Source: Amaricoccus solimangrovi (GTDB lineage Bacteria > Pseudomonadota > Alphaproteobacteria > Rhodobacterales > Rhodobacteraceae). Taken from it: a DNA stretch of 64,000 nt. The DNA lies in assembly GCF_006385685.1 (NCBI RefSeq), contig NZ_VFRP01000016.1, forward strand, positions 1 to 64,000. Reading direction: 5' to 3'. The position numbers and the translations under genes are program-made. The notes under the pieces were generated by a model. That model saw only the letters and a program-made list of their open reading frames with translations. It did not search any database and was not told where the DNA came from. Positions 31,618 through 48,185 of the stretch are shown here, one piece after another. Numbering within the stretch: the first letter of the stretch is position 1; each line of letters starts with the position of its first letter.

Positions 31618-33294
31618 TCACTCGGCGGCGCGGATCGGCTCGGGATGGGCCATCCACTCGTGGCCGCGCAGCATCGCCCGCCAGTAGATCGGCGGCAGCA
31701 TCCGCTCCTTCAGGAGCCAGGCCGCGCGCGTCGGCCGCGTGCCGTCGAGCAGGAATTTCGGGAAGGAGGGTTTCAGCGCCCCGCCATAGCCGAATTCCGC
31801 CAGCACGATCCTGCCGCGCTCCACCGTCAGCGGGCAGGAGCCGTAGCCGTCGTATTGCGCGACCGGCGCGCGGCCGGCGATGTCGGCCACGACGTTCTCC
31901 GCCACCACCGGCGCCTGCTTGCGCGCCGCGGCCGCCGTCTTGGCATTGGGCGCGTTCATCACGTCGCCGAGCGACCAGATGTTCTCGTAGGTCCGGTGGC
32001 GCAGCGTCGCCTGATCGACGTCGACCCAGCCGGCCGCGTCCGCGAGCGGCGAGACCCGGATGAAGTCCGGCGCGACCTGCGGCGGGCAGACGTGGATCAT
32101 GTCGAATTCGGTCTCGACCCGGCGGACCGGCTGGCCGGGCTCGCTCACCTCGAAGGTGGCCCGACGGGCCGGGCCGTCGATGGCGACGAGGTTGTGGAAG
32201 AAGTTCAGCCCGGCGCGGTAGCGTTCGACATATTCCATCAGCGCCGGCACGTAGTCCTTCACGCCGAAGAGCACGCCGCCCGCGTTCATGAAGGAGATCT
32301 CGATGTCGTCGAGCACGCCCCGGCGCAGCCAGGCGTCGCCGGAGAGATACATCGCCTTCTGCGGCGCGCCGGCGCATTTGATCGGCATCGGCGGCTGGGT
32401 GAAGATCGCGCGGCCGCGCTTCATCTCGCCGACGAGCTTCCAGGTATAGGGCGCGAGGTCGTAGCGGTAGTTCGAGGTGACGCCGTTCCGGCCGAGCGTG
32501 CGCTCCAGCCCCTCGATCCGGTCCCAGTCGAGCTTCAGCCCGGGGCAGACGATCAGCCGGTCGTATCTCACCACCCGGCAGCCGTCGAGGATCACCGCGT
32601 TCGCCTCCGGCTCGAAGGCCGCGACCGCCGCCTTGATCCAGTGCACGCCCTTCGGGACCAGCCCGCCCATCACCCGCGCGGTGTCGCGCGCCTCGAAGAC
32701 GCCGGCGCCGACGAGGGTCCAGCCGGGCTGGTAGTAATGCACGTCGGCCGGGTCGATCAGCGCGATCTCGAGATCGGCCTTGCGCGCCCTGAGGCTCGCC
32801 GCGACCGAGATGCCGGCCGCGCCCGCGCCGACGATCACCACGTCGAACCGCGCGTCGGCCGTGTCGGTCGGCGTGCGCCCGCCGTTGGCGATGCGCCGCG
32901 CGACGCCGTTCATGTCGTAGCCGGCGCCGCGCGTCCGGCCGAGGATGTCCGAGAGCGCCCTGTCGCCGGCCTCGGCGAGCGACCAGAGCGTCGCCGAGCG
33001 CGTGCCGGTGCGGCAATAGGCGAGGATCGGCCCCGGCAGGCGGCGGATCGCCGCGCCGAAGGCGACGGCGTCCTCGTCCCGGACCATGCCCGTGGCGACC
33101 GGCAGGTAGAGCGCCTCGATCCCCTCGGCGGCGGCGGCGGCCTCGATCTCCTCGAAGCCCGGCTGGTCCGGCCCCTCGCCGTCGGGCCGGTTGCAGATCA
33201 CCGCGCGAAAGCCGAGTTCGCGCAGCCGGGGCAGATCCTCCGCCAGGATCTGCGGGGAGACGCTCAGCGTCTCGTCGATCTTCCTTACATCCAT
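31618..33294 (-). CDS. fused DUF442 sulfurtransferase and sulfide:quinone oxidoreductase-like flavoprotein
   Basis: 558 residues. Residues 1-115 are a DUF442 (Blh-like, TIGR01244-type) domain with a rhodanese-like loop YCRTGTRS (C94). Residues 150-540 are an FAD-dependent oxidoreductase with VVIVGAGAAG (GxGxxG), an IVCPGL cysteine and PIKCAGAPQK, a motif shared with SQRDL-type sulfide:quinone oxidoreductases, plus IHVCPPQ. A plausible role is oxidising sulfide at the membrane and passing the sulfane sulfur to the attached domain. The ATG at 33294 follows AGGAGG by eight bases. No BigR-like repressor is adjacent. Confidence 0.88.
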   Translation of the reverse strand: MDVRKIDETLSVSPQILAEDLPRLRELGFRAVICNRPDGEGPDQPGFEEIEAAAAAEGIEALYLPVATGMVRDEDAVAFGAAIRRLPGPILAYCRTGTRSATLWSLAEAGDRALSDILGRTRGAGYDMNGVARRIANGGRTPTDTADARFDVVIVGAGAAGISVAASLRARKADLEIALIDPADVHYYQPGWTLVGAGVFEARDTARVMGGLVPKGVHWIKAAVAAFEPEANAVILDGCRVVRYDRLIVCPGLKLDWDRIEGLERTLGRNGVTSNYRYDLAPYTWKLVGEMKRGRAIFTQPPMPIKCAGAPQKAMYLSGDAWLRRGVLDDIEISFMNAGGVLFGVKDYVPALMEYVERYRAGLNFFHNLVAIDGPARRATFEVSEPGQPVRRVETEFDMIHVCPPQVAPDFIRVSPLADAAGWVDVDQATLRHRTYENIWSLGDVMNAPNAKTAAAARKQAPVVAENVVADIAGRAPVAQYDGYGSCPLTVERGRIVLAEFGYGGALKPSFPKFLLDGTRPTRAAWLLKERMLPPIYWRAMLRGHEWMAHPEPIRAAE

Positions 33295-33635: not shown

Positions 33636-35045
33636 ATGTCGCACGTCGAGATGAGTGACGCCGATCAGCGATTCCTGCCGGAGGACAACGCGCGCCAGAT
33701 CTTCGCGCCGCTGGAGTTCCGGAACCTGACGGTGAAGAACCGGCTGTTCCGATCGAACATCTCCGGCACGTTCGACGATTACAACGGCCACGGCAGCCAC
33801 ACCCGGATCAACTGGGAGACGCGTTTCGCGAAGGGCGGCGTCGGCGCGATCATCTCCTCCTTCACCCCGGTCACGGTGCGCGGGCGAATCCTCACGCGCT
33901 ATGCGATGATCGACAAGGACGACAAGATCCCGTTCTGGACCCGCGTCGGCGAGAGCGTGCACGAGCACGACTGCCGCTTCATCATGCAGCTCAGCCATTC
34001 CGGCCGGCAGCAGGACATGGGCGGGATCGAGAACTATTTCCGCGAGGCGCCGAGTTCGACGAGCCGGAAGGACTTCTTCCACGGCATCCTCGCCAAGGCG
34101 ATGACAAAGCCCGAGATCGCCGAGACGGTGGAGCAGTTCGCGCAGGGCGCGCGGCGCGCGCGGGAGGCGGGGCTCGACGGGGTCGAGCTCCACGGCGCGA
34201 ACGGCTATCTCATCACCCAGTTCCTGAGCTCCGGGATCAACGACCGGACCGACGAATACGGCGGCGGCTGGGAGGCGCGGGCACGTTTCGTGCTCGAGAT
34301 CGTCCGCGCGATCCGCCGCGAGGTCGGGCGCGACTTCCATCTCCAGATGAAGATCAACGGCGTCGATCACAACGACTGGCTCTATCCCTGGGAGAAGAAG
34401 GGCAATCCGCTCGACGAGACGGTCGACATCTGCCGGCTGCTGCTCGATGACGGCGCGGGCGTCGACGCGTTCCACGTCTCTTCCGGCTCGACCTTCCCGC
34501 ATCCGCGCAACCCGCCGGGCGACCTGCCGATCCGCGAGCTCACGCGCTGGTACGACGGGCTGCTGTCGCAGGGCGTGCGCACGCATCTCAACTACGCGAT
34601 CTTCTCGAACCCGATCGCCGGGCCGCTCTTCCGGCGCTACTGGATCTGGCGGCGGGGCAAGGTGATCGAGGGGATCAACCTCGACTACGCCCGCGCGGTC
34701 AGGGACGCGGTCCATGCGATCGATCCCTCCGTCAAGGTGATCTGCACCGGCGGCTTCCAGCACGCCTCGAAGATCGCCGGGGCGATCCGCTCCGGGGCCT
34801 GCGACGGCGTCTCGATCGCGCGGCCGCTCATCGCCAATCCGGACCTGCCGGGGATGCTGCGCACGGCCGAGGGGCCGCCGCCGGGAAAGGAATGCACCTA
34901 TTGCAACAAGTGTCTCATCAACGACCTCGAGAACCCGCTCGGCTGCTACGAGCTCAGCCGGTTCGACGGCGACACGTTCGAGGCGCGCTACGACGCGATG
35001 ATCGCCGAGGTCATGTCCGTCTTCGAACCACCCGCCTACCGGTGA
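33636..35045 (+). CDS. Old Yellow Enzyme-type NADH:flavin oxidoreductase with C-terminal Fe-S cysteines
   Basis: 469 residues, an FMN TIM barrel. Active-site type motifs are FIMQLSHSGRQ, ELHGANGYLITQFLSSGINDRTDEYGG and TGGFQHASKIAGAIRSGACDGVSIARPL. Cysteines C420, C423, C426 and C437 (CTYCNKC ... GCYE) fit the [4Fe-4S] site of the dienoyl-CoA reductase/trimethylamine dehydrogenase branch. Those enzymes usually continue into a C-terminal NAD(P)H/FAD domain, but this chain stops, so its electron partner is unclear. It would reduce an activated C=C bond or demethylate/oxidise a substrate in the cytoplasm. First gene of the eight-gene cluster; the next starts 25 bases on. Confidence 0.85.
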   Translation: MSHVEMSDADQRFLPEDNARQIFAPLEFRNLTVKNRLFRSNISGTFDDYNGHGSHTRINWETRFAKGGVGAIISSFTPVTVRGRILTRYAMIDKDDKIPFWTRVGESVHEHDCRFIMQLSHSGRQQDMGGIENYFREAPSSTSRKDFFHGILAKAMTKPEIAETVEQFAQGARRAREAGLDGVELHGANGYLITQFLSSGINDRTDEYGGGWEARARFVLEIVRAIRREVGRDFHLQMKINGVDHNDWLYPWEKKGNPLDETVDICRLLLDDGAGVDAFHVSSGSTFPHPRNPPGDLPIRELTRWYDGLLSQGVRTHLNYAIFSNPIAGPLFRRYWIWRRGKVIEGINLDYARAVRDAVHAIDPSVKVICTGGFQHASKIAGAIRSGACDGVSIARPLIANPDLPGMLRTAEGPPPGKECTYCNKCLINDLENPLGCYELSRFDGDTFEARYDAMIAEVMSVFEPPAYR

Positions 35046-35070
35046 CGGCCCAGCAGCGAGGAGAAATCCG

Positions 35071-36585
35071 ATGGCGCTCGATCTCGACCGCCTCAGCCCC
35101 GTGGAAAAGGCGATGGCCCGCCGGCGGATCTGGCGCTGGATCATCATCGCGCTGATCGCCGCGCTGATCGTCTGGCGGCTCGTCTTCGTGAACCAGTACG
35201 TCGTCGCCTATGAAAAGCCCCTCGACCATTTCCTGCGCGGCTCGATCGGCTCGGAAACCGCGAACGGCATGCCGGTGCTGGTCTTCAAGGCGCTGCCGGT
35301 CATCTATCGCGACCGGCTCGGCCCCGGCGGCTGGCGCCATTTCGGCCTCCTCCAGGAACCGGGCGACGACCTGCCGCTCGGCTTCTCCCGCCGGGTGGTG
35401 ACGGGGGTCGAGCGGGTCTGGCTCAACTGCTCGGTCTGCCATGTCGGCACCTACCGGATGCCGGGCGAGAGCGAGGAGCATTATGTCTACGGCGCGCCCT
35501 CGAACAACCTCCGGCTCTACGCGCTCATCCGCTTCTTCATCGACGCCGGGCGGGATCCGGGTTTCACCGCCGACGCGCTCGTCGATGCGATCAACTCCGA
35601 CGCGGTGGGGGGCGAGCTCAATTTCGCCGAGCGCGCGCTCTACCGCCACATCGTCTTTCCCCGGGTGAAGGCGGCCTTCCTCAACCTCGGCCAGGAGCTC
35701 GCCTTCGTCGAGCGGCAGGAGGACTGGGGACCGGGGCGGGTCGACACGTTCAATCCCTACAAGGCGATCCAGTTCAACTTCCCGATGGGGCCGGACACGA
35801 TCAGCGAGGTCGCGCTCAACGGTTCCTCCGACTACCCCTCGATCTGGATGCAGCGCCCGCGCGAGGGGATGAACCTGCACTGGGACGGCAACAATTCCTC
35901 GGTCGCCGAGCGCAACCTCTCCGCCGCGCTCGGCGCGGGGGTGACGCCCGTCACCGTCGACCGCGCCGCGATCCACCGGATCGAGGACTGGATGTGGGAC
36001 CTGCCCGCGCCCGCCTGGCCCGGACCGGTCGACGCGGAGAAGGCCGGCCGGGGCGAGGCGCTCTACGCCGGATACTGCGCCGGCTGCCACGGGATGAAGC
36101 GCGAGGGCGCCTATGACTACGACCGCGCCCGCCATCCGGGGCTGGGAAAGGTCGTGCCCCTGCCCGAGATCGGCACCGATCCGGGGCGCTGGGCCTCCTA
36201 CACGCCCGATTTCGCCGGGGCGCAGAACACGCTCTACGCCGGCTATCCCTGGCGATTCACCCATTTCCACGTGACCGACGGCTATGTCGGCCAGCCGCTC
36301 GACGGGATCTGGGCGCGCTCGCCCTATCTGCACAACGGCTCGGTCCCGACGCTGCGCGACCTGCTGGAGCCGGCGGCGGACCGGCCGAAGGTCTGGTTCC
36401 GGGGCGGCGACGTGCTCGACCTCGACCGCGTCGGCTACCGCTCCGATCCCGGCGCGGCGGCGGCCTTCCGCTACGACACGCGCCGCCCGGGCAACAGCGA
36501 CGCCGGCCACGACGGCGCGGAATACGGCACGGCGCTGCCGGCGTCCGACAAGGACGCCATCGTCGAATACATGAAGACGCTGTGA
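35071..36585 (+). CDS. membrane-anchored di-heme cytochrome c, RoxA-like (first)
   Basis: 504 residues. One N-terminal membrane helix (about 20-42, IWRWIIIALIAALIVWRLVF) with positive residues on the cytoplasmic side places the body in the periplasm. Two heme c sites are CSVCH (C120-H124) and CAGCH (C336-H340). The segments RVDTFNPYKAIQF, SPYLHNGSVPTLRDLLEP and the end HDGAEYGTALPASDKDAIVEYMKTL are shared with the RoxA (rubber oxygenase)-like group of two-heme proteins, which is smaller here than RoxA. It may be an oxygenase or an electron carrier. Strong GAGGAGAAATCCG precedes the ATG. Confidence 0.82.
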   Translation: MALDLDRLSPVEKAMARRRIWRWIIIALIAALIVWRLVFVNQYVVAYEKPLDHFLRGSIGSETANGMPVLVFKALPVIYRDRLGPGGWRHFGLLQEPGDDLPLGFSRRVVTGVERVWLNCSVCHVGTYRMPGESEEHYVYGAPSNNLRLYALIRFFIDAGRDPGFTADALVDAINSDAVGGELNFAERALYRHIVFPRVKAAFLNLGQELAFVERQEDWGPGRVDTFNPYKAIQFNFPMGPDTISEVALNGSSDYPSIWMQRPREGMNLHWDGNNSSVAERNLSAALGAGVTPVTVDRAAIHRIEDWMWDLPAPAWPGPVDAEKAGRGEALYAGYCAGCHGMKREGAYDYDRARHPGLGKVVPLPEIGTDPGRWASYTPDFAGAQNTLYAGYPWRFTHFHVTDGYVGQPLDGIWARSPYLHNGSVPTLRDLLEPAADRPKVWFRGGDVLDLDRVGYRSDPGAAAAFRYDTRRPGNSDAGHDGAEYGTALPASDKDAIVEYMKTL

Positions 36586-36595
36586 GCAGGATGCC

Positions 36596-37036
36596 ATGAA
36601 TACGGGCCACGCCTCCCTCGCCCGCTGGAAGCTCCGCCACACGGTGGTGGTGGTGATCGGGATCCTGCTCAACCTCGCCTACTGCTTCCCGCTGCTCGTC
36701 GCGCCCGACTGGACGCTGGCGCTCTTCGGCATCCCGCGCGAGGGCACGACCTTCTGGCCGCGCCTCGTCGGCGGGCTCCTGATCCTGATCTCGACCTTCT
36801 ACGTGCCGATGACGGTCGATCTCGACCGCTACCGGATCTTCGCCTGGCTCTCGATCCTGCCGTCGCGGACCTTCGGCGCCACCTTCCTCTTCGTCGCGGT
36901 GCTCGGCTTCGGCTTCGCCGGCGGCTTCCTCGTGCCCGCGCTGATCGACGCGGGCATCGCCATCGCCTCGCTCTACTGCATGATCCATGTGGTGAGGATC
37001 GAGCAGGCGCTCGCCACCGGGAGGAGCGTGCGATGA
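36596..37036 (+). CDS. small four-helix membrane protein of the cytochrome cluster
   Basis: 146 residues with about four hydrophobic helices (around 14-42, 56-76, 82-103, 106-130) and a short basic tail. I do not recognise a family. The start ATG follows AGGATGCC, 10 bases after the first cytochrome stop, and the end overlaps the second cytochrome start by four bases (ATGA), so it is made together with them. A quinone-side membrane anchor or a partner subunit for the periplasmic cytochromes is possible but unproven. Confidence 0.75.
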   Translation: MNTGHASLARWKLRHTVVVVIGILLNLAYCFPLLVAPDWTLALFGIPREGTTFWPRLVGGLLILISTFYVPMTVDLDRYRIFAWLSILPSRTFGATFLFVAVLGFGFAGGFLVPALIDAGIAIASLYCMIHVVRIEQALATGRSVR

Positions 37037-38502
37037 GGTTCTGGCGCGCGCTCCTCTGGCTTCTCGTCGCGATGGTCGTGCTCGGCCTCGGAGCCTGGTT
37101 CCTGCTGCTCCGGCCGGTGCCGCAGAAGGCGACCAACGATCCGGCGGAGCTCTTCCACCACGGCTCGATCGGCAACGAGGCGGCGCAGGGCCTGCCCTAC
37201 TGGATCTGGCGCGTGCTGCCGAAGGTCTTTCCCGACCTGATGCCGGGCAACCGGGACGGCTACGGCGCCTTCGGCCTCTACTGGGCGGCGGGCGACGCGG
37301 TGCCGATCGGCATGTCGGTCAAGACGCTCGGCGTCATTCCCCGCGTCGCGCCGAACTGCGCCTTCTGCCACCAGGGCAGCTACCGGCTCGCGCCCGAGGA
37401 CGCGCCCCGCCTCGTCAGCGCCGGCGCCGGCACGCGGGTCGACACGCAGAGCTACATCCGCTTCGTGACCCGCGCGGGCTCGGACCCGCGCTTCACCGCC
37501 GACCGGCTGATGACCGAGATCCGCGCGATCTACGACATGCCGCTCTGGGAGCGGATGACCTACCGCTTCGTGCTGATCCCGGCGACGCGCAAGGCGCTGA
37601 CGAAACAGGCGCCCCAATTCGCCTGGATGGCGACGCGGCCGGACTGGGGGCCGGGGCGCATCGATCCGTTCAACCCGGTCAAGTTCCAGAACCTCCGGCT
37701 CGGCGACGACGGGACCATCGGCAATTCCGACATGATGCCGCTCTGGGACATGGCGAGCACCGAGGCGACGCCGCTCCGCCGCGCCGCGCTGCACTGGGAC
37801 GGGTTGCAGACCGACCTTACCGAGACCGTGGTCTCGGGCGCGATCGGCGACGGGATGAGCTACCAGTCCTTCCCGGAGACGAAGCCGGCGCTCGAGGGGA
37901 TGGAGGCCTTCATCTCGCGGATGAAGCCGCCGCCCTCGCCCTTCTCCGCCGACCGGCCGAGGGGCGATCCCTACCGCGTCGATCCGGCCCAGGTGGAGAC
38001 GGGCCGGGGGATCTACCTCCGCGACTGCGCCGAATGCCACGACGCGGGCGGGGCGCGCACGCGGAGCGTGATCCCGGTCGCGGAGCTTGGCACCGACCGG
38101 CACCGGATCGACATGTGGACCGAGGCGGCGCGGGCGCGCTACGCCGCCTACGAGCCGGGCCACGACTGGGGCTTCGAGCATTTCGAGAAGACGGAAGGTT
38201 ACGTCGCCGTGCCGCTGACCGGGCTCTGGCTGCGCGGCCCCTATCTGCACAACGGCTCGGTCCCGACGCTCGCCGCGCTGCTCGCGCCGCCGGACCGGCG
38301 GCCGAAGGTGTTCTGGCGCGGCTCCGACCTCGTCGACGCGGCGAACGGCGGGTTCGTCAGTTCCGAGGGCACGGACCCGCGGCGGCGGATGTGGCGCTAC
38401 GACACCGCCGAGCCCGGCAATGCCAATGGCGGGCATCTCTGGGGGACCGAGCTCGATCCCGCGTCGAAGGCCGCGCTGCTCGCCTATCTCAAGACGCTCT
38501 GA
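37033..38502 (+). CDS. membrane-anchored di-heme cytochrome c, RoxA-like (second)
   Basis: 489 residues, related to the first cytochrome of this cluster. An N-terminal helix (about 5-27) anchors it. Heme sites are CAFCH (C109-H113) and CAECH (C332-H336). It shares RIDPFNPVKFQNL, GPYLHNGSVPTLAALLAPPDRRPKVFWRG and the ending GGHLWGTELDPASKAALLAYLKTL with its neighbour, which indicates an old duplication. Spacing of the two heme motifs is nearly identical (223 versus 216 residues). GGGAGGAGCGTGCG precedes the ATG. Confidence 0.82.
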   Translation: MRFWRALLWLLVAMVVLGLGAWFLLLRPVPQKATNDPAELFHHGSIGNEAAQGLPYWIWRVLPKVFPDLMPGNRDGYGAFGLYWAAGDAVPIGMSVKTLGVIPRVAPNCAFCHQGSYRLAPEDAPRLVSAGAGTRVDTQSYIRFVTRAGSDPRFTADRLMTEIRAIYDMPLWERMTYRFVLIPATRKALTKQAPQFAWMATRPDWGPGRIDPFNPVKFQNLRLGDDGTIGNSDMMPLWDMASTEATPLRRAALHWDGLQTDLTETVVSGAIGDGMSYQSFPETKPALEGMEAFISRMKPPPSPFSADRPRGDPYRVDPAQVETGRGIYLRDCAECHDAGGARTRSVIPVAELGTDRHRIDMWTEAARARYAAYEPGHDWGFEHFEKTEGYVAVPLTGLWLRGPYLHNGSVPTLAALLAPPDRRPKVFWRGSDLVDAANGGFVSSEGTDPRRRMWRYDTAEPGNANGGHLWGTELDPASKAALLAYLKTL

Positions 38503-38515
38503 AAGGGAGGCGGCC

Positions 38516-41287
38516 ATGTGGCCAGAACGGATCACGCGCATCATCGGCTGGATCCTCGCCGTTCTCGCCGGCCTCGCGCTCTTCGTGCTCATCGTGGGCT
38601 TCTTCGCGGTCCGGGGCTTCGTCGAGCCGGATTCCGGCTCCTTCGGGACCCTCCCCGACGAGGCGAAACAGGCGGGCCGCGACGCGGAAAGCCTCCGCGC
38701 GGCGGGCGAGCCCTATTTCGCCGCGATGGACAAGGGCCTGCTCGAGATGCCCGCGGCCGGCGCGCCCTACCCGCCCGAGATCGAGCAGGTGGCGAAGATC
38801 GCGGGGCTGGAGCCGGAGGCGGTGCGGCTCGCCGCGATCCGGGGACAGAACATGTGGATCGCCTGGACCGGCGGCAACGACCGCTTCTGGGACTGGGCGG
38901 CGCGCAACGCGATCGGCTCCTTCGACCTCCTGAAGATCATCTCCTCGCATCCGAGCCAGGCCTATGGCCGGGGCAACCGCTTCCGCTATCTCGGCCTCTC
39001 GAACGAGCCCTGTTTCCGCGCGCCGGACGGGCCGGACGACACGCATTTCGGCCTCTGGATCGACCAGCGCGACCCCGCCTGCCCGCCCGACCCGTTCGCC
39101 GACGCCGACGCCTATCCCGGCGTGAAGGTCGGCGCGCGCGGCGAGACGCTGCCCGTCGGCTCCTACTACGGCGAGCCGACCGGGGTGATGGGGCTGCGCC
39201 TCTTCCCCAATCCCGATTTCGACGCCGCGGCCAAGGCGCGCTGGGATCCGGAGCGGTTCTACAAGGATCCCGCCTATTACAACGACAAGGACCTGGTGCG
39301 CCCCTACCGCGTCGGCATGTCCTGCGCCTTCTGCCACGTCGGCCCGAGCCCGATCCACCCGCCGAAGGACGTGGAGAACCCCGCGTTCGGCGAACTCGCC
39401 TCCAACACCGGCGCGCAGTATTTCTGGGTGGACCGGATCTTCTTCTGGAACACCCGGCCGCGCGAGGATCCCGCGGTGGCGAGCCCGAACGAGGGCAACA
39501 TCCTCTACCAGCTCTTCCACACCAACCCGCCGGGCGCGCTCGACACCTCGCTGGTCTCGACCGACTACATGAACAACCCGCGGACGATGAACGCGGTCTA
39601 CGAGACGATCGCGCGGCTCGACATGGCGCCCGGCCAGGGGATCGAGACGCTGCGGCGGGGCGAACTCGACAACCGGCAGTTCCAGGACTACCCGGAGACG
39701 GCGGCGCTCGGCGCGCTCTTCGATCCCGCGACCGGCAAGGCGGCCTCGATGCGGGTGCTGAAGGACGGCGCGGACAGCGTCGGCGCGCTCGGCGCGCTGA
39801 ACCGGGTCTATCTCAACATCGGCCTCTTCTCCGAGGAATGGCTGCTGCATTTCCGCGCCTTCCTCGGCGGGCGGAAGATCTCGCCGATCCCGATCGCCAC
39901 CGCGCGGAAGAACTCGGTCTACTGGCGCGCGACGGAGGCCGGAACGCCCGACATGGCGATCTTCTTCCTCGTCACCGCCCGCGCCGACCGGCTGAGGGAC
40001 GCGCCCGGCGGGGCGGAGATCCTCGCGGCCGAGGACAAGGATCAGGTGAAACGCGGCGAGATCGTCTTCGCGGAGACCTGCGCGGGCTGTCATTCGAGCA
40101 AGCAGCCGGTGCCCGACCCGTCCTTCGGCGTCGACACCGGCCCCTGCGCCGGCGGCGGCTCCGGCCCCGGCTATCGCGCCTGCTGGGACCGCTACTGGGC
40201 CTGGGTCAACTCCGACGGCTACAAGGCGGCGATGCGCGAGATGGTGGCGCGCCCCGACTTCCTCGACGGCAATTTCCTCTCGACCGACCGCCGCGTGCCG
40301 CTCGACCTCATCGGCGTCAACGCCTGCTCGGCGATCGCGACCAACGGGCTCGCCGGGGACATCTGGGACAATTTCACCTCCGCCACCTACAAGTCGCTGC
40401 CCGCGCCGAAGCCGGTGACGGTCTACCATCCGGTCTCGGGCGGGGCGACGGAATTCGCCCCGCTCGGCAACGGGCGCGGCTATGTCCGGCCCGCCTCGCT
40501 CGTCAGCCTCTGGTCGACCGCGCCCTATCTGCAGAACAACTCGGTCGGCTACGATCCGGACTACTACCACTACGACCGGCCCGCCGCCGGCTATGGCGCG
40601 GAGAAGCCGGAGAGCGCGAAGCCCGCCGCCTACGACCCGGGCGCGGCCGACGACTGGGGGCCGCGCACCTGCCCCTCCTCCGATCCCTACGACCCGGCGA
40701 TGCCCTGCGTCGAGAACCGGCTCCACGCCTTCGACCGCTCGATCCGCCAGATCCTCGATCCGGCCGAGCGGCGGACGGATCCGCTCACGACCGAGCCGGT
40801 GCCGGGCTACATCTACCGCACCTCGGCCCCCGCCTGCCTGATCGTGCCGCCGGGCTTCGTCCCGGACGCGGCGCGGCCCTTCACCGGCCTCGCCCACCGG
40901 CTCGCGCCCTGGGCGGTGACGGCGGAGGGCGGGATCGCGGTCGGCCCCTTCCCGAAGGACTTCCCGATCAACGCGCTCGTCAGCACCAAGCTCCTGCCCG
41001 ACAATGACGAGCCCGACATGATGGCCCATCTCTGGAAGCTCGCGAAGACCGGGCCCTCGATCCTCGCGGCGGTCAAGGCGCTGGGCGGCCAGTGCGCGCC
41101 GGAGCAGCTGCGCGATCCGGGCGTCGAGCAGCATGCCGAGGAAGTGGTGCGCGAGACCGGCCTCGTCGACACGCTGGTCGGCCTCAGCAAGTGCCCCGAC
41201 TACGTGGTGAACCGCGGCCACGATTTCGGCGCCCCGCTCTCGCCCGACGACCGCGAGGCGCTGATCGCCTATCTGCGGCATTTCTGA
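38516..41287 (+). CDS. large membrane-anchored two-heme cytochrome c protein
   Basis: 923 residues, almost twice the size of its neighbours. One N-terminal helix (about 8-33), then a periplasmic body. Heme sites are CAFCH (C270-H274) and CAGCH (C522-H526). At least ten further cysteines (for example GPCAGGGSGPGYRACW, TCPSSD, PCVENR, LSKCPDY) suggest disulfides. The C-terminal half has RPASLVSLWSTAPYLQNNSVG, the counterpart of PYLHNGSVPTL in the smaller proteins. It ends SPDDREALIAYLRHF. It is likely a catalytic or scaffold member of the same superfamily. The start at 38516 has GGGAGGCGGCC just upstream. Confidence 0.8.
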   Translation: MWPERITRIIGWILAVLAGLALFVLIVGFFAVRGFVEPDSGSFGTLPDEAKQAGRDAESLRAAGEPYFAAMDKGLLEMPAAGAPYPPEIEQVAKIAGLEPEAVRLAAIRGQNMWIAWTGGNDRFWDWAARNAIGSFDLLKIISSHPSQAYGRGNRFRYLGLSNEPCFRAPDGPDDTHFGLWIDQRDPACPPDPFADADAYPGVKVGARGETLPVGSYYGEPTGVMGLRLFPNPDFDAAAKARWDPERFYKDPAYYNDKDLVRPYRVGMSCAFCHVGPSPIHPPKDVENPAFGELASNTGAQYFWVDRIFFWNTRPREDPAVASPNEGNILYQLFHTNPPGALDTSLVSTDYMNNPRTMNAVYETIARLDMAPGQGIETLRRGELDNRQFQDYPETAALGALFDPATGKAASMRVLKDGADSVGALGALNRVYLNIGLFSEEWLLHFRAFLGGRKISPIPIATARKNSVYWRATEAGTPDMAIFFLVTARADRLRDAPGGAEILAAEDKDQVKRGEIVFAETCAGCHSSKQPVPDPSFGVDTGPCAGGGSGPGYRACWDRYWAWVNSDGYKAAMREMVARPDFLDGNFLSTDRRVPLDLIGVNACSAIATNGLAGDIWDNFTSATYKSLPAPKPVTVYHPVSGGATEFAPLGNGRGYVRPASLVSLWSTAPYLQNNSVGYDPDYYHYDRPAAGYGAEKPESAKPAAYDPGAADDWGPRTCPSSDPYDPAMPCVENRLHAFDRSIRQILDPAERRTDPLTTEPVPGYIYRTSAPACLIVPPGFVPDAARPFTGLAHRLAPWAVTAEGGIAVGPFPKDFPINALVSTKLLPDNDEPDMMAHLWKLAKTGPSILAAVKALGGQCAPEQLRDPGVEQHAEEVVRETGLVDTLVGLSKCPDYVVNRGHDFGAPLSPDDREALIAYLRHF

Positions 41288-41295
41288 GCGCGGCC

Positions 41296-43110
41296 ATGGC
41301 TCCCGGACCCGACATGTTCGACGTGATCGTCATCGGGGCCGGGGCCGCCGGCGCGCCGCTCGCCGCGCGGCTGGCGGAGGGAGGCGCGCATGTGCTGCTC
41401 CTCGAGGCGGGCGGCGACCCGCTCGCCCCGGCGGAGGATCGCCGCGGCGCGCGCTCGCTGGCGGACGACTATTCCGTGCCCGCCTTCCATGCCTTCGCCT
41501 CCGAGCATCCGGGCATGACGGAGAGCTTCTGGGTCCATCACTACGACGACGAGGCGGTCGAGCGGCGCGATCCGAAATACTGGCCCGAACGGAAGGGGGT
41601 GCTCTACCCGCGCGTGCGCGCGCTGGGCGGCTGCGCGGCGCATCACGCGCTGATCGTGATCCGGCCGAACGACGCCGACTGGAACCATATCGCGGAGACC
41701 ATGGGCGATCCCTCCTGGCGCGCCTCCGCGATGCAGGCCTACTGGGAGCGGGTGGAGCGCTGCCGCTCGCGCTGGTTTCCCTGGCGCTGGCTCGCGCGGC
41801 TCACCGGCTGGAACCCGCTCGGCCACGGCTGGGACGGCTGGCTCACCACCGAGCTCGCAATCCCGCTGCGCGGCCTCGCCGACCGCGCGCTCCGGGCCGA
41901 GGTGCTGTCCTCGCTCTTCGCGGCGGCGGACAACCATCCCGGCCGGGCCAGCGACTGGCAGGAGGCGCAGCCCGATCCGAACGAGCGCCCGCTCTGGAAC
42001 GCCTCGGCCTCCGGCATCAAGCTGATGCCGCTCGGCACCCGGCGCCATGCCCGGCACGGCCCGCGCGAGCGGCTGCGCGCGGCCGAGGCGGCGCATCCCG
42101 ACCGGCTGACGCTCCGGCTCCACGCCGAGGTGCGCCGGATCGAGATCGAGAACGGCCGCGCCGTCGCCGTCCGTTACGCCGAGCAGGGCGTGGAGCGGGT
42201 CTCCCGCGCGCGCCACGACATCGTGCTCTGCGCCGGCGCCTTCGGCTCGCCGAAACTGCTGCTTCTCTCGGGCATCGGCGATCCCGGCCATCTCGCGGAG
42301 GCGGGCGTCGCGCCGATCCACCCGCTGCCGGGCGTCGGGCGCAACCTGCAGGACCGCTACGAGATCGGCGTGGTGAACCGGATGAAACGGCCGTGGCAGA
42401 CGCTCGAGGGCGTGACCTACGGCCCGTCCGACCGCGCCTACAAGCTCTGGCGCCGGTTCCGGATCGGCAATTACACGAGCAACGGCGCGCTCTTCGCGGC
42501 GCGGTTCCGCTCGCGCGCGGAACTGCCCGAGCCAGACCTCTTCTGCTTCTCCTTCCTCGCGGATTTCCGGGGCTACTACCCGGGCTATTCCGCGCGGCTG
42601 CTGAAACCGGACTACCTGACCTGGGTGGTGCTGAAGGCCTACGCGGCCAATCGCGCCGGCACGGTGCGGCTCCGCTCCGCCGATCCCGCGGACCCGCCCG
42701 AGATCCGCTTCCGCTACTTCCACGACGACGGGCCGGGCGATCGCGACGATCTCGACGCGATGGTGACCGCGATCCGCTTCGTGCGCCGGATCGCGGGCGC
42801 GATGGAGAGCCGGATCGCCGAGGAGGAGGAGCCGGGGCGCCAGCGCGAATCCGACGCGGCGCTGCGCCAGTATGTGCGCGATCACGCCTGGGGCCACCAC
42901 GCCTGCGGCACCTGCGCGATGGCGCCGCTCGCCGACGGCGGCGTCGTCGACGGCGGCTTCCGCGTCCACGGGCTCGGGGGGCTCCGCGTCGTCGACGCCT
43001 CGGTCTTTCCGCGCATCCCCGGATATTTCCCCGTCGCCGCCGTCGCGATGCTGGCCGAGAAGGCCGCCGACCAGATCCTCGCGGACGCCGCGATCACCCG
43101 GAAGGAGTGA
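41296..43110 (+). CDS. GMC-family FAD oxidoreductase
   Basis: 604 residues. The Rossmann motif VIVIGAGAAGAPLAARLAEG binds FAD, followed by LLLEAGGD. The GMC active-site loop region is VRALGGCAAHHALIVIRPNDADWNHIAETMGDPSW. A second signature, FGSPKLLLLSGIGDPGHL, and the C-terminal GHHACGTCAMAP (H534/H535) with RVVDASVFPRIPGYFPVAAVAML complete it. GMC enzymes oxidise alcohols (choline, sterols, sugars, fatty alcohols) and pass electrons to O2, quinones or cytochromes. No signal peptide is visible, so it appears cytoplasmic. It starts 8 bases after the large cytochrome and ends 3 bases before the protease fusion. Confidence 0.88.
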   Translation: MAPGPDMFDVIVIGAGAAGAPLAARLAEGGAHVLLLEAGGDPLAPAEDRRGARSLADDYSVPAFHAFASEHPGMTESFWVHHYDDEAVERRDPKYWPERKGVLYPRVRALGGCAAHHALIVIRPNDADWNHIAETMGDPSWRASAMQAYWERVERCRSRWFPWRWLARLTGWNPLGHGWDGWLTTELAIPLRGLADRALRAEVLSSLFAAADNHPGRASDWQEAQPDPNERPLWNASASGIKLMPLGTRRHARHGPRERLRAAEAAHPDRLTLRLHAEVRRIEIENGRAVAVRYAEQGVERVSRARHDIVLCAGAFGSPKLLLLSGIGDPGHLAEAGVAPIHPLPGVGRNLQDRYEIGVVNRMKRPWQTLEGVTYGPSDRAYKLWRRFRIGNYTSNGALFAARFRSRAELPEPDLFCFSFLADFRGYYPGYSARLLKPDYLTWVVLKAYAANRAGTVRLRSADPADPPEIRFRYFHDDGPGDRDDLDAMVTAIRFVRRIAGAMESRIAEEEEPGRQRESDAALRQYVRDHAWGHHACGTCAMAPLADGGVVDGGFRVHGLGGLRVVDASVFPRIPGYFPVAAVAMLAEKAADQILADAAITRKE

Positions 43111-43113
43111 GCC

Positions 43114-46100
43114 ATGCCCCGCCCCGCCATCCTCATCAAGCTCGCCGGCGCGCCGGAACAGGGTTTCGCCGGGCTCCGCCTCGACACCGGCGCGCGGCTG
43201 ACGCCGCTCTTCGGCGTGCCGGGCGGCGACCCGGCGCTCGCGGGCGTGGCGCCCGGACGCCCCCGCGCCTGGTTCCGCGCCGAGGCGCCGGAGGGCTTCA
43301 TGACGCCGGCCGCCGCCTGGGACGCGGCCCACGCGGCGGTGCGCGACGGGCTCGGGGTCGCGGACGCCGCGGTGCTGGCGGCCGAGCCCGATCTCGAACA
43401 GGTCTGGCCGGGCGAGCCCGCCCGCGCAGCCTTCGGCGCCGCCGGGGGGCCGGAGGGGCAGAAGGGCGCGCCCTTCGACCTCGGCCCGGGCTTCGGCTGG
43501 CATCTCGACGACGCGCATTCGGGGCTGCGCGCCGCGCGCGAGGCGGTGGGCGCGGCGGGGGCCGGGATCACCATCGTCCATCTCGACACCGGCTACGACC
43601 CGGCGCACCGCGCGCTGCCGCGCAATCTCGACACGGCGCGGGCGCGCAATTTCGTCGAGGGCACGAACAGCGCCGTCGACATGGCCCCGGCCTCGGGCGT
43701 GCTCACGAACCGCGGCCACGGCACCGGCACGATCGGGCTGCTCGCGGGCGGGGACACGAGGGGGCTGCGGTCGGATCCGGCGATCCCGAACGGCTTCGGC
43801 CCGCTCGGCGGCGCGCCGGAGGCGCGGGTGGTCCCGGTCCGGATCGCCAATTCCGTGGTGCATTTCTGGACCAGCACGGTCGCGCGGGGCATCGATTACG
43901 CCCGCCGGATCGGCGCCGACGTCGTCTCGATGAGCATGGGGGGCCTGCCTTCGGCGAGCTGGGCCGACGCGGTCAACGCCGCCTACGAGGCGGGCGTGCT
44001 CATCGTCTGCGCGGCGGGCAACAGTTTCAACGGCCTGCCGACCTCGCTCATCGTCTATCCCGCGCGCTTCAACCGCGTGCTCGCCGCCTGCGGCGTGATG
44101 GCGAAGGGCAACCCCTATCACGGGCTCGGCGGCCCGATGGAGGGCTGCGCCGGGCCGATGAGCAAGATGCGCACCGCGATGGCCGCCTATACGCCGAACG
44201 CGCCCTGGGCGCGGATCGGCAGCCCCGACGTGATCGACATGGACGGCGCCGGCACCTCCGCCGCGACGCCGCAGCTCGCCGCCGCCGCCGCGCTCTGGCT
44301 CGCGCGCCATGGCGACAAGTACCAGCGCTCCTGGCAGCGGGTCGAGGCGGCGCGCTCGGCGCTCTACCATTCCGCCGGGCGCGCGGGCGACGCGCCGGAC
44401 GGCACCGTCGATCCGCTCCTCGGCCGGGGCCTCCTGCGCGCGCGCGCCGCGCTCGACATGCGCCCGAGCGCGGCGAGCCTCACCCGGACGGCGCCCGACA
44501 GCGCCTCGCACGCCTTCCTGCGGCTCGCGACCAGCGCCTTCGGCGCGGCCGAGCCCGATCCGCGTCGGCTCGCGATGCTCCGGCTCGAGCTTTCGCAACT
44601 CGCGCTCGCCACGCCGGCGGCCGCGCGCGCGCTCGCCGATCCCGACGATCCGGCCGCGGTCGGCGACGCGCTCGGCCGGCGCCGGCTGCTCGAGGCGATC
44701 CTCGACGAGGGCCATCCCTCCGCCGCGCTTCGCGCCGGGCTCGGCGCCGCGCTCGGCCGGGGCGCGCTCCAACCGCCAAAGCCGCGCCCGCCCGCGCCGC
44801 CCTCCACCGCGCCCGAGACCTCCTCCGGCCCCGGCGTGCCCGGCAGCGGCGCGAAGATCCCGCGCCGGATCGTCGAGCGCAAACCGACGAAGCGGCGGCT
44901 GCGCATCTTCGCGACCGACCCGGGCGACAGCCGCAGCCTGCGCCGCTCCTTCGTCAATGTCGCGACCGTCGAGATCCCCTGGGAGGAGAAGCTCGAACCC
45001 GGGCCGGTCGGCGAATATCTCGAGGTGATCGACATCGACCCGGCGAGCGGGGTCGCCTATCCGCCGGTCGATCTCGACGCGGGCGCGCTGCTGGCGCAGG
45101 ACGGGATCGCGCCTTCCGAGGGCAATCCGAACTTCCACCAGCAGATGGTCTACGCGGTGGCGATGCGCACCATCCGCAACTTCGAACTCGCGCTCGGCCG
45201 GCGCGCGCTCTGGGCGGATCACAACTGGCGGGACGACAAGGGCGCGTGGCACACCGACTTCGTCCGGCGCCTGCGGATCTATCCGCACGCGCTGCGCGAG
45301 AGGAACGCCTATTACAGCCCCGAGCGCGTCGCGCTGCTCTTCGGCTATTTCGCCGAGACCGGCAGCGCCTCGCAGAGCCGGAACACCGTCTTCTCCTGCC
45401 TCTCGCACGACATCGTCGCGCACGAGACCACCCACGCGCTGCTCGACGGGCTGCACCGCCGCTTCAAGGAGCCGACCAGCCCCGACGCCTTCGCATTTCA
45501 CGAGGCCTTCGCCGACATCGTGGCGATCTTCCAGCACTTCACCTTCCCCGAACTGCTCCGCTACGAGCTTCGCCGGCTGCGCGGAGACCTGACGCGCGCC
45601 TCGATCCTCTCCGATCTCGCGCGCCAGTTCGGCCAGGCGCTCCACAACGGCCGGGCGCTGCGCCAGGCGATCGGGGATGGCCCGGCGGGGGTGTTCGAGG
45701 ATACCGGCGAGGCGCCGGCGCCGGCGGAGAACTACATGGACGTCTCCGAGCCGCACCGGCGCGGCGCGATCCTCGTCGCCGCGATCTTCGAGGCCTTCCT
45801 CGCGATCTTCAACCGCCGGACCGAGGACCTGCTGCGCCTCGCGACCTCCGGCACCGGCGTGCTCGGCCCCGGCGCGCTGCCCCCCGACCTGATCGAGCGG
45901 CTGGCCCGGGAGGCCGTCCACGTCGCCCAGCGCATCCTGACGAGCGCGATCCGCGCGCTCGACTACATGCCCCCCGTGGATCCGACCTTCGGCGACTACC
46001 TGCGCGCGATCGTCACCGCCGACGCGGAGGTTTCCGCCGACAGCGAGAGCGGCTTCCGCGTCGCCTTCGCCGAGGCCTTCGCCCGCCGCGGCATCTATCC

Positions 46101-46713
46101 GAGCGACGTGCCCATCGTCTCGCCCGACGGGCTGCTCTGGCAGGGGCCGGCCGAGCCGGAGCGCTGGAAGGGCCTGCGCCTCTTCCTGCGGCGCGCGAAA
46201 GTGAACCTGCCCGATTACAACGCGCGCGACCGGAGCATCGTGCGCCGCGCCGCGGAACGGGCGGCGGTCGACCTGCACGACTGGCTCGTCCGCTCGCTCG
46301 ACGCGGAGATGGCGAGGTCGCTCGGCCTCGATCTCGCGCTGAAGATCGAGGTCCATTCGCTCCGGCCCGCCCAGCGCGTCACCGCGGACGGCGAGACGCG
46401 CACCGACCTCGTCGCCGTCATCACCCAGAAGAAGCGGCTGCCGCGCGACCCCGCCGATCCGGACGGGCCGAGCTTCACCTTCCGGGGCGGCTGCGTGCTG
46501 ATCCTCGACCGCGAATACGACGCCGACTGCCCGATCCGCTACGCGATCAGCCGGCCGATCTTCAACGAGAGCCGCGCGCGGCGGGTGCGCGAATACCAGT
46601 TCGGCGGCGGCGTCACCGACGCCTATGGCGACGCGGCCACCGCCTTCGAGGGCGGAGCCCGAAGCCGGGCCGAGCCCTTCGCGCTCGTCCACGCCGAACT
46701 CGGGAGGGAATGA
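43114..46713 (+). CDS. fusion of S8 subtilisin-like serine protease and HExxH metallopeptidase
   Basis: 1199 residues without a signal peptide. The S8 unit (about 140-445) has D158 (VHLDTGYD), H202 (NRGHGTGTIG), oxyanion N303 (CAAGNSFNG) and S382 (GAGTSAATPQ), so the full triad is present. A proline-rich linker (about 550-575) follows. The second unit (about 585-1190) has H770-E771-x-x-H774 (VAHETTHALLDG) and E797/D801 (HEAFADIVAIF), a thermolysin-like gluzincin zinc arrangement. It ends in a beta-rich domain. GGAAGGAGTGAGCC precedes the ATG. I know no named family with this order; substrate and target are unknown. Confidence 0.82.
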   Translation: MPRPAILIKLAGAPEQGFAGLRLDTGARLTPLFGVPGGDPALAGVAPGRPRAWFRAEAPEGFMTPAAAWDAAHAAVRDGLGVADAAVLAAEPDLEQVWPGEPARAAFGAAGGPEGQKGAPFDLGPGFGWHLDDAHSGLRAAREAVGAAGAGITIVHLDTGYDPAHRALPRNLDTARARNFVEGTNSAVDMAPASGVLTNRGHGTGTIGLLAGGDTRGLRSDPAIPNGFGPLGGAPEARVVPVRIANSVVHFWTSTVARGIDYARRIGADVVSMSMGGLPSASWADAVNAAYEAGVLIVCAAGNSFNGLPTSLIVYPARFNRVLAACGVMAKGNPYHGLGGPMEGCAGPMSKMRTAMAAYTPNAPWARIGSPDVIDMDGAGTSAATPQLAAAAALWLARHGDKYQRSWQRVEAARSALYHSAGRAGDAPDGTVDPLLGRGLLRARAALDMRPSAASLTRTAPDSASHAFLRLATSAFGAAEPDPRRLAMLRLELSQLALATPAAARALADPDDPAAVGDALGRRRLLEAILDEGHPSAALRAGLGAALGRGALQPPKPRPPAPPSTAPETSSGPGVPGSGAKIPRRIVERKPTKRRLRIFATDPGDSRSLRRSFVNVATVEIPWEEKLEPGPVGEYLEVIDIDPASGVAYPPVDLDAGALLAQDGIAPSEGNPNFHQQMVYAVAMRTIRNFELALGRRALWADHNWRDDKGAWHTDFVRRLRIYPHALRERNAYYSPERVALLFGYFAETGSASQSRNTVFSCLSHDIVAHETTHALLDGLHRRFKEPTSPDAFAFHEAFADIVAIFQHFTFPELLRYELRRLRGDLTRASILSDLARQFGQALHNGRALRQAIGDGPAGVFEDTGEAPAPAENYMDVSEPHRRGAILVAAIFEAFLAIFNRRTEDLLRLATSGTGVLGPGALPPDLIERLAREAVHVAQRILTSAIRALDYMPPVDPTFGDYLRAIVTADAEVSADSESGFRVAFAEAFARRGIYPSDVPIVSPDGLLWQGPAEPERWKGLRLFLRRAKVNLPDYNARDRSIVRRAAERAAVDLHDWLVRSLDAEMARSLGLDLALKIEVHSLRPAQRVTADGETRTDLVAVITQKKRLPRDPADPDGPSFTFRGGCVLILDREYDADCPIRYAISRPIFNESRARRVREYQFGGGVTDAYGDAATAFEGGARSRAEPFALVHAELGRE

Positions 46714-46715
46714 CC

Positions 46716-48185
46716 ATGGCCCGCGAAACCCAGGCCAGTGAAACCCGGCCTCGCGTCCGGGTCCGCATGTACCGCCAGGGGCTCGGCGACTGCTTCCTCG
46801 TCTCGGTGCTGCGCGACGACGCGCCCCCCTTCCACATGATGATCGACTGCGGCGTCATCCTCGGCACGCCCGACGCGACCGGACGGCTGCGCGCGGTCCT
46901 CGGCTCGGTGATCGAGGAGACCGGCGGGCGGATCGACGTGCTCGCCGTCACCCACGAGCATTACGATCACGTCGCGGGGTTCTTCCTCGCCCGGGATCTC
47001 TTCGCCGCGCCCGAGGAGGCGGGGGCGGCGGGCAAGCTCAGCGTCGGCGAGGTCTGGTTCGCCTGGACCGAGGATCCGGCCAGCGACCTCGCGCGGACGC
47101 TCCGCGAGGAACGCGCGGCCGGGCTGCGCGCGCTCACCGCGATGGCGCTGCGCCTCGGCGCGGCGGGGCTCGGGGACGAACCCGCCGTCGGCGCGGCGCT
47201 GAGCTTCTTCGGCGTCGAGGCGAAGGAGTCCGGGGCGAGCGGCCTCGGCCATACCGCGGAGGCGATGGCCTTCGCCGCCGGCCTCGCGCCGCCGGGCCGG
47301 GTGCGCTACCTCGAACCCGGCGCGGTGCTCGCCCCCGAGGCCGCGCCGGAACTGCGCTTCCGCGTGCTCGGGCCGCCGATGGACCGCGCGAGCCTGCGCC
47401 GGACCGACTCGACGCGCGAGGTCTATCACATCGCCGCCGGCGCGCTCGAGGCCTCGGTGCTGCTCGCCGCCGGGGAGGACGGCGCGGCCCCGGGCGAGGC
47501 GTTCAGCCCGTTCGGCCCCGGCTGGGGCCTGCCGCTCGCGAGCCTCGGGGAACTCGCCGACGACCGCGCGAAGTTCTTCCGCGAACTCTATCTCGACGAT
47601 GCGGAACAGTCCTGGCGGCGCATCGACGGCGCCTGGCTCGCGAGCGCCGAGGGCCTCGCGCTGGCGCTCGACGGGGCGACGAACAACACGAGCCTCGTGC
47701 TCGCGATCGAACTCGTCGAGGGCGACGGGGACGGCGAGGGCGGCGGCGGCGAGGTGCTGCTCTTCCCCGCCGACGCGCAGGTCGGCAACTGGCTCTCCTG
47801 GGACACGCTCGCCTGGCCGGGGCCGGAGGGCACGCTGACCGCCGCCGACCTGCTCGCGCGCACGGTCTTCTACAAGGTCGGCCATCACGGCAGCCACAAC
47901 GCCACGCTGCGCGCCCGGGGGCTCGAACGGATGCCGGCGCCCGATCTGGTGAGCTTCATTCCCGTGGACGAGGAGATGGCGCGGAAGAAGCGGTGGAACG
48001 CGATGCCGCTCCCCGCCCTTCTCGAGGCGCTGCGCGCGCATTGCGGGCCGGGGCTGGTCCGGCTCGACGAGGATCCGCCCGCGGACGCGCCCGGCGTCAC
48101 GACCGGCGGGACCGGGGTCCAGTACGGCTCGCTCTACGTCGACTGGACCCGCGCCCTGCCGGCGCGGCGGGCGGCCACGAGCTGA
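46716..48185 (+). CDS. metallo-beta-lactamase-fold hydrolase
   Basis: 489 residues, cytoplasmic by appearance. It opens VRVRMYRQGLGDCFLVSVLRDD, then MMIDCGVI and the metal motif THEHYDHVAG (H80, H82, D84, H85). Further ligands may lie in LFPADAQVGNW and KVGHHGSHNAT. This layout resembles ComEC-type MBL domains and stand-alone MBL proteins found beside proteases and in conflict-type operons. The ATG at 46716 is chosen because GGGAGG lies eight bases upstream; an ATG at 46710 is too close to it. It is the last gene of the cluster, 2 bases after the protease fusion. Its substrate is unknown. Confidence 0.85.
   Translation: MARETQASETRPRVRVRMYRQGLGDCFLVSVLRDDAPPFHMMIDCGVILGTPDATGRLRAVLGSVIEETGGRIDVLAVTHEHYDHVAGFFLARDLFAAPEEAGAAGKLSVGEVWFAWTEDPASDLARTLREERAAGLRALTAMALRLGAAGLGDEPAVGAALSFFGVEAKESGASGLGHTAEAMAFAAGLAPPGRVRYLEPGAVLAPEAAPELRFRVLGPPMDRASLRRTDSTREVYHIAAGALEASVLLAAGEDGAAPGEAFSPFGPGWGLPLASLGELADDRAKFFRELYLDDAEQSWRRIDGAWLASAEGLALALDGATNNTSLVLAIELVEGDGDGEGGGGEVLLFPADAQVGNWLSWDTLAWPGPEGTLTAADLLARTVFYKVGHHGSHNATLRARGLERMPAPDLVSFIPVDEEMARKKRWNAMPLPALLEALRAHCGPGLVRLDEDPPADAPGVTTGGTGVQYGSLYVDWTRALPARRAATS

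Follow-up and report, generated by a model that had tools for sequence, protein, structure and literature searches.

An eight-gene locus of Amaricoccus solimangrovi was analyzed within a window of 64,000 nt (G000:C45:1-64000, the whole stretch of DNA examined), whose source assembly is 4.86 Mb in 135 contigs. The eight genes, A to H, form two separable units that usually occur apart. The first unit, A-F, encodes an old yellow enzyme (OYE)-type flavin reductase (A), three di-heme cytochromes (B, D, and E), a small membrane protein (C), and a GMC oxidoreductase (F). The second unit, G-H, encodes a subtilase joined to a second half with an HExxH motif (G) and a hydrolase of the metallo-β-lactamase (MBL) fold (H). 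We read A-F as a lipid-oxidation operon and G-H as a separately travelling pair, the two being joined here in one probable transcript, and we give this combined reading an even chance. An earlier reading of the same DNA, here called the original prediction, had described eight genes in one close-set row, and that set is real: the coordinates, strand, gaps, and protein names all agreed with the open reading frames (ORFs), the Pfam and NCBIfam matches, and the motifs.

First, the distribution of A-F was determined using E as the query against the genome_contigs collection. The scan gave 269 confirmed relatives, and all counts out of 80 below refer to the best 80 of these. Because the gene caller was unreliable in several GC-rich loci (L063, L083, L090, L101, and L167 among them), gene content and order in the 80 E loci were read by tblastn. 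In 23 of the 80 loci, and also in locus L025, the order of the six genes A-F was conserved; the hosts included Paracoccus, Rhizobium, Sinorhizobium, Kaistia, Bradyrhizobium, Xanthobacter, and others. This recurrence confirmed that the order is more than chance. F was found in 77 of the 80 loci, and in 69 it lay on the same strand as E and at most 700 nt behind it. F was on the opposite strand, upstream of E, in six acidobacterial loci (L078, L088, L091, L094, L100, and L112); two genes separated E and F in L102, and F preceded E in L123. The E-F pair occurs in proteobacteria, acidobacteria, and Nitrospira, a conserved pair without assigned function in the database records inspected.

Gaps, protein identities, and patatin positions were analyzed in 23 A-F loci, L025 included and L063 excluded. 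The intergenic gaps were -8 to 38 nt, apart from four of 52-86 nt, and the pairwise identities of the six proteins ran parallel (r = 0.91-0.97), a result that host kinship could give likewise. The nearest relative among the best 80 of the 269 was a Xanthobacter metagenome-assembled genome (L063), in which the six proteins were 72-84% identical to those of the window and no matches to G or H were found. Closer to the window genome, matches to E were obtained in 5 of 244 genomes from the order and in 7 of 385 from the class, each count including the window genome itself; of the class-level matches, five were weak, with 33-36% identity. An E locus was also present in Litoreibacter arenae (G219), which belongs to the same family as the window genome. 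F was absent from all ten congeners at an expectation value of 1e-80, which suggests that the region is recent in this genome and was gained by transfer. Since A-F recurs in the hosts named above and F is missing from the ten congeners, A-F looks like a travelling unit. A search for the empty site found the Mrp antiporter gene in four of the ten congeners. The four stretches around it showed no cluster gene and, apart from Mrp, no flank gene of the window; as two of these contigs were only 12 and 15 kb long, an empty site cannot be read from them.

The statement in the original prediction that the cluster had no recognised precedent did not survive these searches, because A-F is present in many public genomes; its cytochromes are labelled 'hypothetical protein' or 'cytochrome c' in the records inspected. 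No description of the A-F cluster or the G-H pair was found in the open-licence PubMed Central (PMC) literature as judged by title and the start of the abstract, which is a narrow test of novelty. The proposed check of the gene order in other genomes gave a split answer. A-F without G-H was the rule, full-length G occurring in three of the 80 E loci and H in none, yet four acidobacterial loci (L079, L095, L102, and L160) carry G relatives beside E-F. The absence of H from the 80 E loci rules out the eight genes as one conserved cluster, and the acidobacterial loci show that the window is not alone in having a G relative next to E-F.

Next, the G-H pair was traced. Across the phylum, matches to G were obtained in 10 of 398 genomes, a count that includes the window genome and some matches to one half only. 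Matches also came from 127 plasmid records, three of them with a coverage of at least 80% of G, while the viral_contigs collection gave three pattern matches, none of which was a relative. G-H without redox genes occurred on other chromosomes and plasmids. Full-length G with an adjoining H was present in L041, L042, and L131-L134, and in L135 with H in two pieces, while the second half of G alone accompanied H in L043 (H in two pieces), L044, L045, L163, L164, and L169. No H was found with L161, L162, L165, L166, or L049, nor with the subtilase-only loci L046-L048; the loci L168, L170, and L171 stand outside this tally. In L045, L163, and L164, a patatin-like gene, called by Pfam in L045 and by motif and similarity only in the other two, was added to the second half of G and H in the absence of redox genes, which is possibly a three-gene conflict module. 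In M. extorquens CM4, a Tle1-like lipase gene precedes G-H, and genes of TIR, SIR2, AAA, and exonuclease type surround the pair. On a Phyllobacterium plasmid (L134), G-H lies near a gene annotated as 'peroxidase family protein' and a cytochrome oxidase operon.

The two proteins were then examined by profile and motif. The first half of G matched Peptidase_S8 with 91.8 bits (cut-off 21.8) and showed the triad pattern D158, H202, and S382. The second half carries HETTH at residue 770 and E797, and the His, Glu, and His residues and the third Glu of HExxH...E did not vary among the 14 second halves that were aligned. This half was below every Pfam cut-off. As to a gluzincin (thermolysin-like) fold, the thermolysin match had an expectation value of only 0.74, Peptidase_M4 was matched in 5 of the 14 (best 0.024), and the structure model had a mean predicted local distance difference test (pLDDT) score of 38. 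For H, two Pfam scores were under the cut-off (22.4 versus 22.7 and 20.3 versus 27 bits). HxHxDH and HHGS were invariant in 12 of 12 relatives of H, and we take HHGS to be a ComEC-like motif; H also has a variable central stretch. The PADLOC profile LmuA matched residues 14-120 of the window H (8.3e-11); among the 12 relatives, LmuA and RTasMBL were matched in all 12 and Avs1a in 7. The LmuA profile itself carries no description, and we assume its meaning as a defence profile. Neither G nor H has a hydrophobic or signal stretch, and both are therefore probably cytosolic.

The closest counterparts of G-H are the protease-activated MBL nuclease pairs of Hachiman, AVAST, Lamassu, DRT, and canu systems, in which a protease gene adjoins an MBL gene and to whose MBL proteins H is kin (PMC12799240). 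G differs from the known partners, which are trypsin-like or caspase in the available text of that paper, in being a subtilase with an HExxH half, and no sensor gene was seen beside G-H in the window. The word 'subtilisin' is absent from the main text available to us, which states that further nuclease homologues are paired with proteases of other diverse families; G-H may therefore be partly covered by it (PMC12799240). Against a defence assignment, the match of the window H to defence profiles is confined to about the first 100 residues, and its NCBIfam score was far under the cut-off (22.7 against 420 bits). To the original prediction, the protease/MBL pair had looked like a regulatory or conflict module. 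The matches of H relatives to defence profiles bear this out in part, and an attached conflict-type module is plausible, its mechanism being one that we infer.

How G-H is related to E-F was weighed with the acidobacterial loci. Full-length G relatives lie behind E-F in L079, L095, and L102, and in L160 with three genes between; three of these loci were found with E as the query, and only L160 (G990) with G. In a sample of 217 acidobacterial genomes, full-length G was found in four and full-length E in six (one of them in two pieces), with both in two, one of which was the chosen centre; the other two G genomes were without E. In a tree of 14 full-length G proteins (midpoint root), the six acidobacterial G formed one group with support of 100/100, and four of them were near E-F. 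The window G fell among eight proteobacterial G, of which all eight had H (one in pieces) and one was near E-F; the support of its fork was 92/94, and its sequence make-up was flagged as unusual. Since the window and acidobacterial G are on different branches, the E-F/G neighbourhood was either formed on two occasions or is ancient and has largely disappeared. A functional tie would be favoured by two independent gains, although one window and one acidobacterial group make a thin base for it. In other genomes, the position behind F is held by a patatin lipase or a G relative.

Two results weigh against a tie between the units, namely that H stands beside E-F only in the window and that all four acidobacterial loci are without H. 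That G-H is a chance passenger behind F, unconnected with lipid oxidation, is accordingly a real possibility, which we rate somewhat below even. The lack of H in the 80 loci speaks for it, as do the existence of G-H without redox genes on plasmids and chromosomes, the recent arrival of the region to which the ten congeners without F point, and the frequency of protease relatives near E, which was not significant with seeds from outside the E loci (4/80 versus 0/60 control regions, P = 0.1). However, G relatives of another tree branch adjoin E-F in the four acidobacterial loci, and only 3 nt separate F and G in the window.

The layout of the locus is given in Table 1. All eight ORFs are on the plus strand with intergenic gaps of 25, 10, -4, 13, 8, 3, and 2 nt, and GC content at third codon positions (GC3) was 0.93-0.97 across all of them. 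No promoter-like sites were found inside A-H, and three terminator-like sites were observed versus 4.1 expected, in scans that are weak for a GC-rich genome; A-H probably form a single transcript. The gene caller preferred an alternative start of F, the ATG at 41314, with which the E-F gap would be 26. A matched Oxidored_FMN with 186.1 bits (cut-off 27), the profile being covered only to position 225 of 342. It has four Cys close to the C-terminus (420, 423, 426, and 437), as do iron-sulfur OYEs, but with 469 aa A would be too short to hold the FAD/NAD domains of long OYEs. C had no family match in Pfam, NCBIfam, or PADLOC. F was over the Pfam cut-offs (GMC N 66.4 bits, GMC C 116.7 bits) and reached 237.6 bits with the NCBIfam choline-dehydrogenase model (cut-off 605); no signal peptide was apparent in F when the sequence was judged by eye. 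Outside the eight genes, positions 31618-33294 (minus strand) encode a TIGR01244 sulfur-transferase domain joined to a sulfide-quinone-reductase-like part (NF049943, 191 bits, cut-off 525), and a small permease-like membrane protein at 30793-31527 adjoins this fusion gene.

Table 1. Genes of the A-H locus, with positions in the window.
Gene	Product	Position	Strand	Basis
A	OYE-type flavin reductase, 469 aa	33636..35045	+	Oxidored_FMN, residues 22-240
B	Anchored di-heme cytochrome, RoxA/MauG class	35071..36585	+	CXXCH at 120, 336; PF21419; NF040606
C	Small membrane protein, about four helices	36596..37036	+	Five overlapping hydrophobic windows
D	Anchored di-heme cytochrome, RoxA/MauG class	37033..38502	+	CXXCH at 109, 332; PF21419
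E	Anchored di-heme cytochrome, 923 aa, distant MauG/RoxA relative	38516..41287	+	CXXCH at 270, 522
F	GMC oxidoreductase	41296..43110	+	GMC_oxred_N, GMC_oxred_C
G	Subtilase joined to half with HExxH...E motif	43114..46713	+	Peptidase_S8, residues 149-431
H	MBL-fold hydrolase, kin of defence-system proteins	46716..48185	+	MBL motifs HxHxDH, HHGS; PADLOC LmuA

The three cytochromes each have one N-terminal hydrophobic stretch and two CXXCH motifs. The RoxA-like_Cyt-c family PF21419 (cut-off 26.7) matched B with 65.7 bits and D with 56.3 bits, while E had no Pfam match over its cut-off. In NCBIfam, B was over the cut-off of NF040606, di-heme cytochrome C peroxidase (186.8 versus 150 bits), and D (131.7) and E (35.7) were under it; the RoxA model (cut-off 1000) gave 53.4 bits for B and 44.8 bits for D, and E was not among its matches. 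The rubber oxygenase RoxA (4b2n) was the top solved-structure match of the B/D profile (expectation value 1.1e-24), with which it was collinear in three blocks. B and D are tandem di-heme proteins with the motif PYxHNGSVP, and C lies between them. All 26 B/D proteins had the His residues of both CXXCH motifs, of PYxHNGSVP, and of a C-terminal GH; 24 had the inter-heme Trp, and 25 had His where RoxA has Phe301.

E was compared by residue and by structure. Judged by eye, E lacks the PYxHNGSVP-type His present in B and D. Trp470 and Phe484 were present in 40 of 40 E proteins, and Tyr469 and Phe483 were nearly invariant; the Trp...Phe-Phe (483-484), in an alignment placed by eye, may resemble RoxA Trp302/Phe317, and from the Tyr-Trp...Phe-Phe pattern E may be a true oxygenase. 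The structure model of E (mean pLDDT 82.8) had MauG as its best fold match (Z 8.2), followed by RoxA (Z 7.9), and the first unrelated row was at 3.0. No methylamine dehydrogenase gene, which would recall MauG, was seen by eye among the called genes of the window. We assign B, D, and E to the MauG/RoxA/FadCcp class in its broad sense, but to no named family within it.

Several of these results weigh against an oxygenase role. Phe317 is essential in RoxA according to the available text of PMC4496055, from which the roles of the RoxA residues are taken, whereas its position was Leu or Ile in 24 of the 26 B/D proteins and Phe in one, so that oxygenase activity of B and D is not assured. For E, the tool rates a Z of about 8 as middling, and Foldseek with the E model gave no match at an expectation value of 0.001, which excludes nothing. 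The original prediction had spoken of RoxA-type hemes; B and D are indeed related to RoxA, having two c-hemes, but the label was overstated, since they lack the essential Phe; they also differ from RoxA in being anchored and far under its NCBIfam cut-off. It is rather unlikely, in our estimate, that B, D, and E are instead peroxidases or MauG-like modifiers, serving lipid peroxide removal, repair of oxidised membrane lipids, or protein modification. The name of B's NCBIfam family, the change of Phe301 to His with the loss of Phe317, the MauG match of E in the second look, and the DyP and catalase-like genes that stand beside E-F elsewhere all agree with such a role. However, by sequence the closest structure to B and D is an oxygenase, RoxA, and the Trp...Phe-Phe of E, as placed by eye, recalls RoxA as well.

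The closest described analogue of A-F is the oleate diol synthase operon PA2078-PA2077 (FadCcp) of Pseudomonas aeruginosa, which encodes tandem di-heme oleate enzymes (PMC4496055). As far as the available text shows, both systems have two related di-heme cytochromes in one operon and the motif PYxHNGSVP, and PA2077 has the inter-heme Trp. In contrast, three cytochromes occur here, together with an OYE, a GMC oxidoreductase, and a membrane protein, and the Pseudomonas enzymes have Phe at the RoxA 317 position (F269 and F260; PMC4496055), where B and D mostly have Leu or Ile. This analogue, the conserved order and short gaps of A-F, and the kinship of B and D with RoxA uphold the proposal of the original prediction that the redox genes form an operon-like unit that may use unsaturated substrates.

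The neighbours of E were also investigated. Lipase and protease relatives were counted using seeds from outside the E loci, and the controls were 60 regions, each of 20 kb, taken from nine genomes that contain E or a distant relative. Lipase relatives were present in 14/80 E loci versus 1/60 control regions (P = 0.0018), and lipase or protease relatives in 18/80 versus 1/60 (P = 1.6e-4); as related loci are not independent, these P values are too good. Ordinary families were no different near E (ABC, 16/80 versus 14/60; LysR, 2/80 versus 2/60). A first run gave patatin near E in 20/80 versus 1/60, but its seeds were partly drawn from the E loci themselves. Among the 23 A-F loci, ten had a patatin-like gene directly behind F, and on R. 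johnstonii pRL11 the patatin gene (Patatin by Pfam) is 14 nt behind F. The enrichment of lipase genes near E favours oxygenation of an unsaturated lipid, and lipid is the best-supported substrate class of A-F. On the other side, 66 of the 80 E loci had no lipase nearby by the seeds used.

A second arrangement was found in 21 of the 80 loci, in which E-F is followed in order by four genes, whose products are a protein with the motif PIPDG, one of 431 aa, one that is DyP-like, and one that is catalase-like. The arrangement also occurs in L021-L024. The PIPDG-motif and 431-aa proteins had no Pfam or NCBIfam match; the DyP-like protein was under its NCBIfam cut-off (86.8 versus 100.5) and over one Pfam cut-off (22.3 versus 20). 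The nearest solved chain to the catalase-like protein was coral allene oxide synthase (expectation value 3.2e-4), a weak match that recalls the coral allene oxide synthase/lipoxygenase route; the catalase-like gene is not in the window, and lipoxygenase was not searched for. E-F with these four genes is possibly a bacterial oxylipin cluster. In L026-L029, a distant E occurs with the PIPDG protein and with B-like and D-like cytochromes. In L026, L028, and L029, an extra gene separates the PIPDG gene from that of the B-like cytochrome and encodes a protein of about 480-535 aa with a CxxCHQG heme motif; the L026 protein had no Pfam match.

Two further neighbourhoods contain protease genes. Near E-F in Kaistia (L054, 14709-19339), a relative of the second half of G is next to a caspase-domain protein, and in Rubellimicrobium (L071, 35-2755) a subtilase-trypsin fusion that matches PADLOC 'nacht' lies some 7 kb from E-F.

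These neighbours bear on two readings in which all the genes act together. In one, the whole would be a conflict or cell-death system, with E-F oxidising the cell's own membrane lipids once a protease or lipase arm is triggered. Carried further, it would be the bacterial equivalent of cell death through lipid peroxidation, with E-F as the oxidising core and an exchangeable slot for lipases, a caspase, multi-protease fusions, or a subtilase-metallopeptidase/MBL pair, activation of which would peroxidise membrane lipids while a protease-released nuclease destroyed DNA. We consider the system very improbable, and its extended form just as improbable. The company of E, which includes patatin, a Tle1-like lipase, the caspase gene of L054, the fusion of L071, and G, fits it, and over-expression of PA2077 without its partner is lethal according to the available text of PMC4496055. 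However, B, E, and F had no PADLOC match, A-F alone is steady in many rhizobia and looks metabolic, and caspase and trypsin neighbours are limited to one or two loci each. In the other reading, the eight genes would be one route for lipid-rich particles, the protease stripping protein and the redox genes oxidising lipid. Lipase and protease genes do both occur beside E-F, but the probable cytosolic location of G and H and the defence-type surroundings of G-H alone in CM4 make this extremely improbable.

We therefore return to A-F as a lipid-oxidation operon with G-H as a separate pair. A lipid-type redox pathway for A-F is plausible. The cytochromes B, D, and E would act in the periplasm, where the P. 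aeruginosa oleate enzymes are active according to the available text of PMC5155153, and would either oxygenate an unsaturated lipid, of which a fatty acyl chain is the most likely, or turn over the peroxide so formed. One of them, perhaps E, may form a hydroperoxide that the others convert, as PA2077 and PA2078 do, with C as the membrane part. F would oxidise the alcohol product in the cytosol, and A would reduce a conjugated double bond. Elsewhere, a lipase encoded beside A-F may supply the substrate. By analogy with the protease-activated MBL nucleases, the existence of which is established in the available text of PMC12799240, G would cleave and thereby activate H, releasing a self-damaging enzyme, probably a nuclease.

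If E-F does oxygenate lipids, an oxylipin-type pathway based on c-hemes is widespread among bacteria of soil and roots, and G-H would bring another protease class into the protease-activated MBL pairs.

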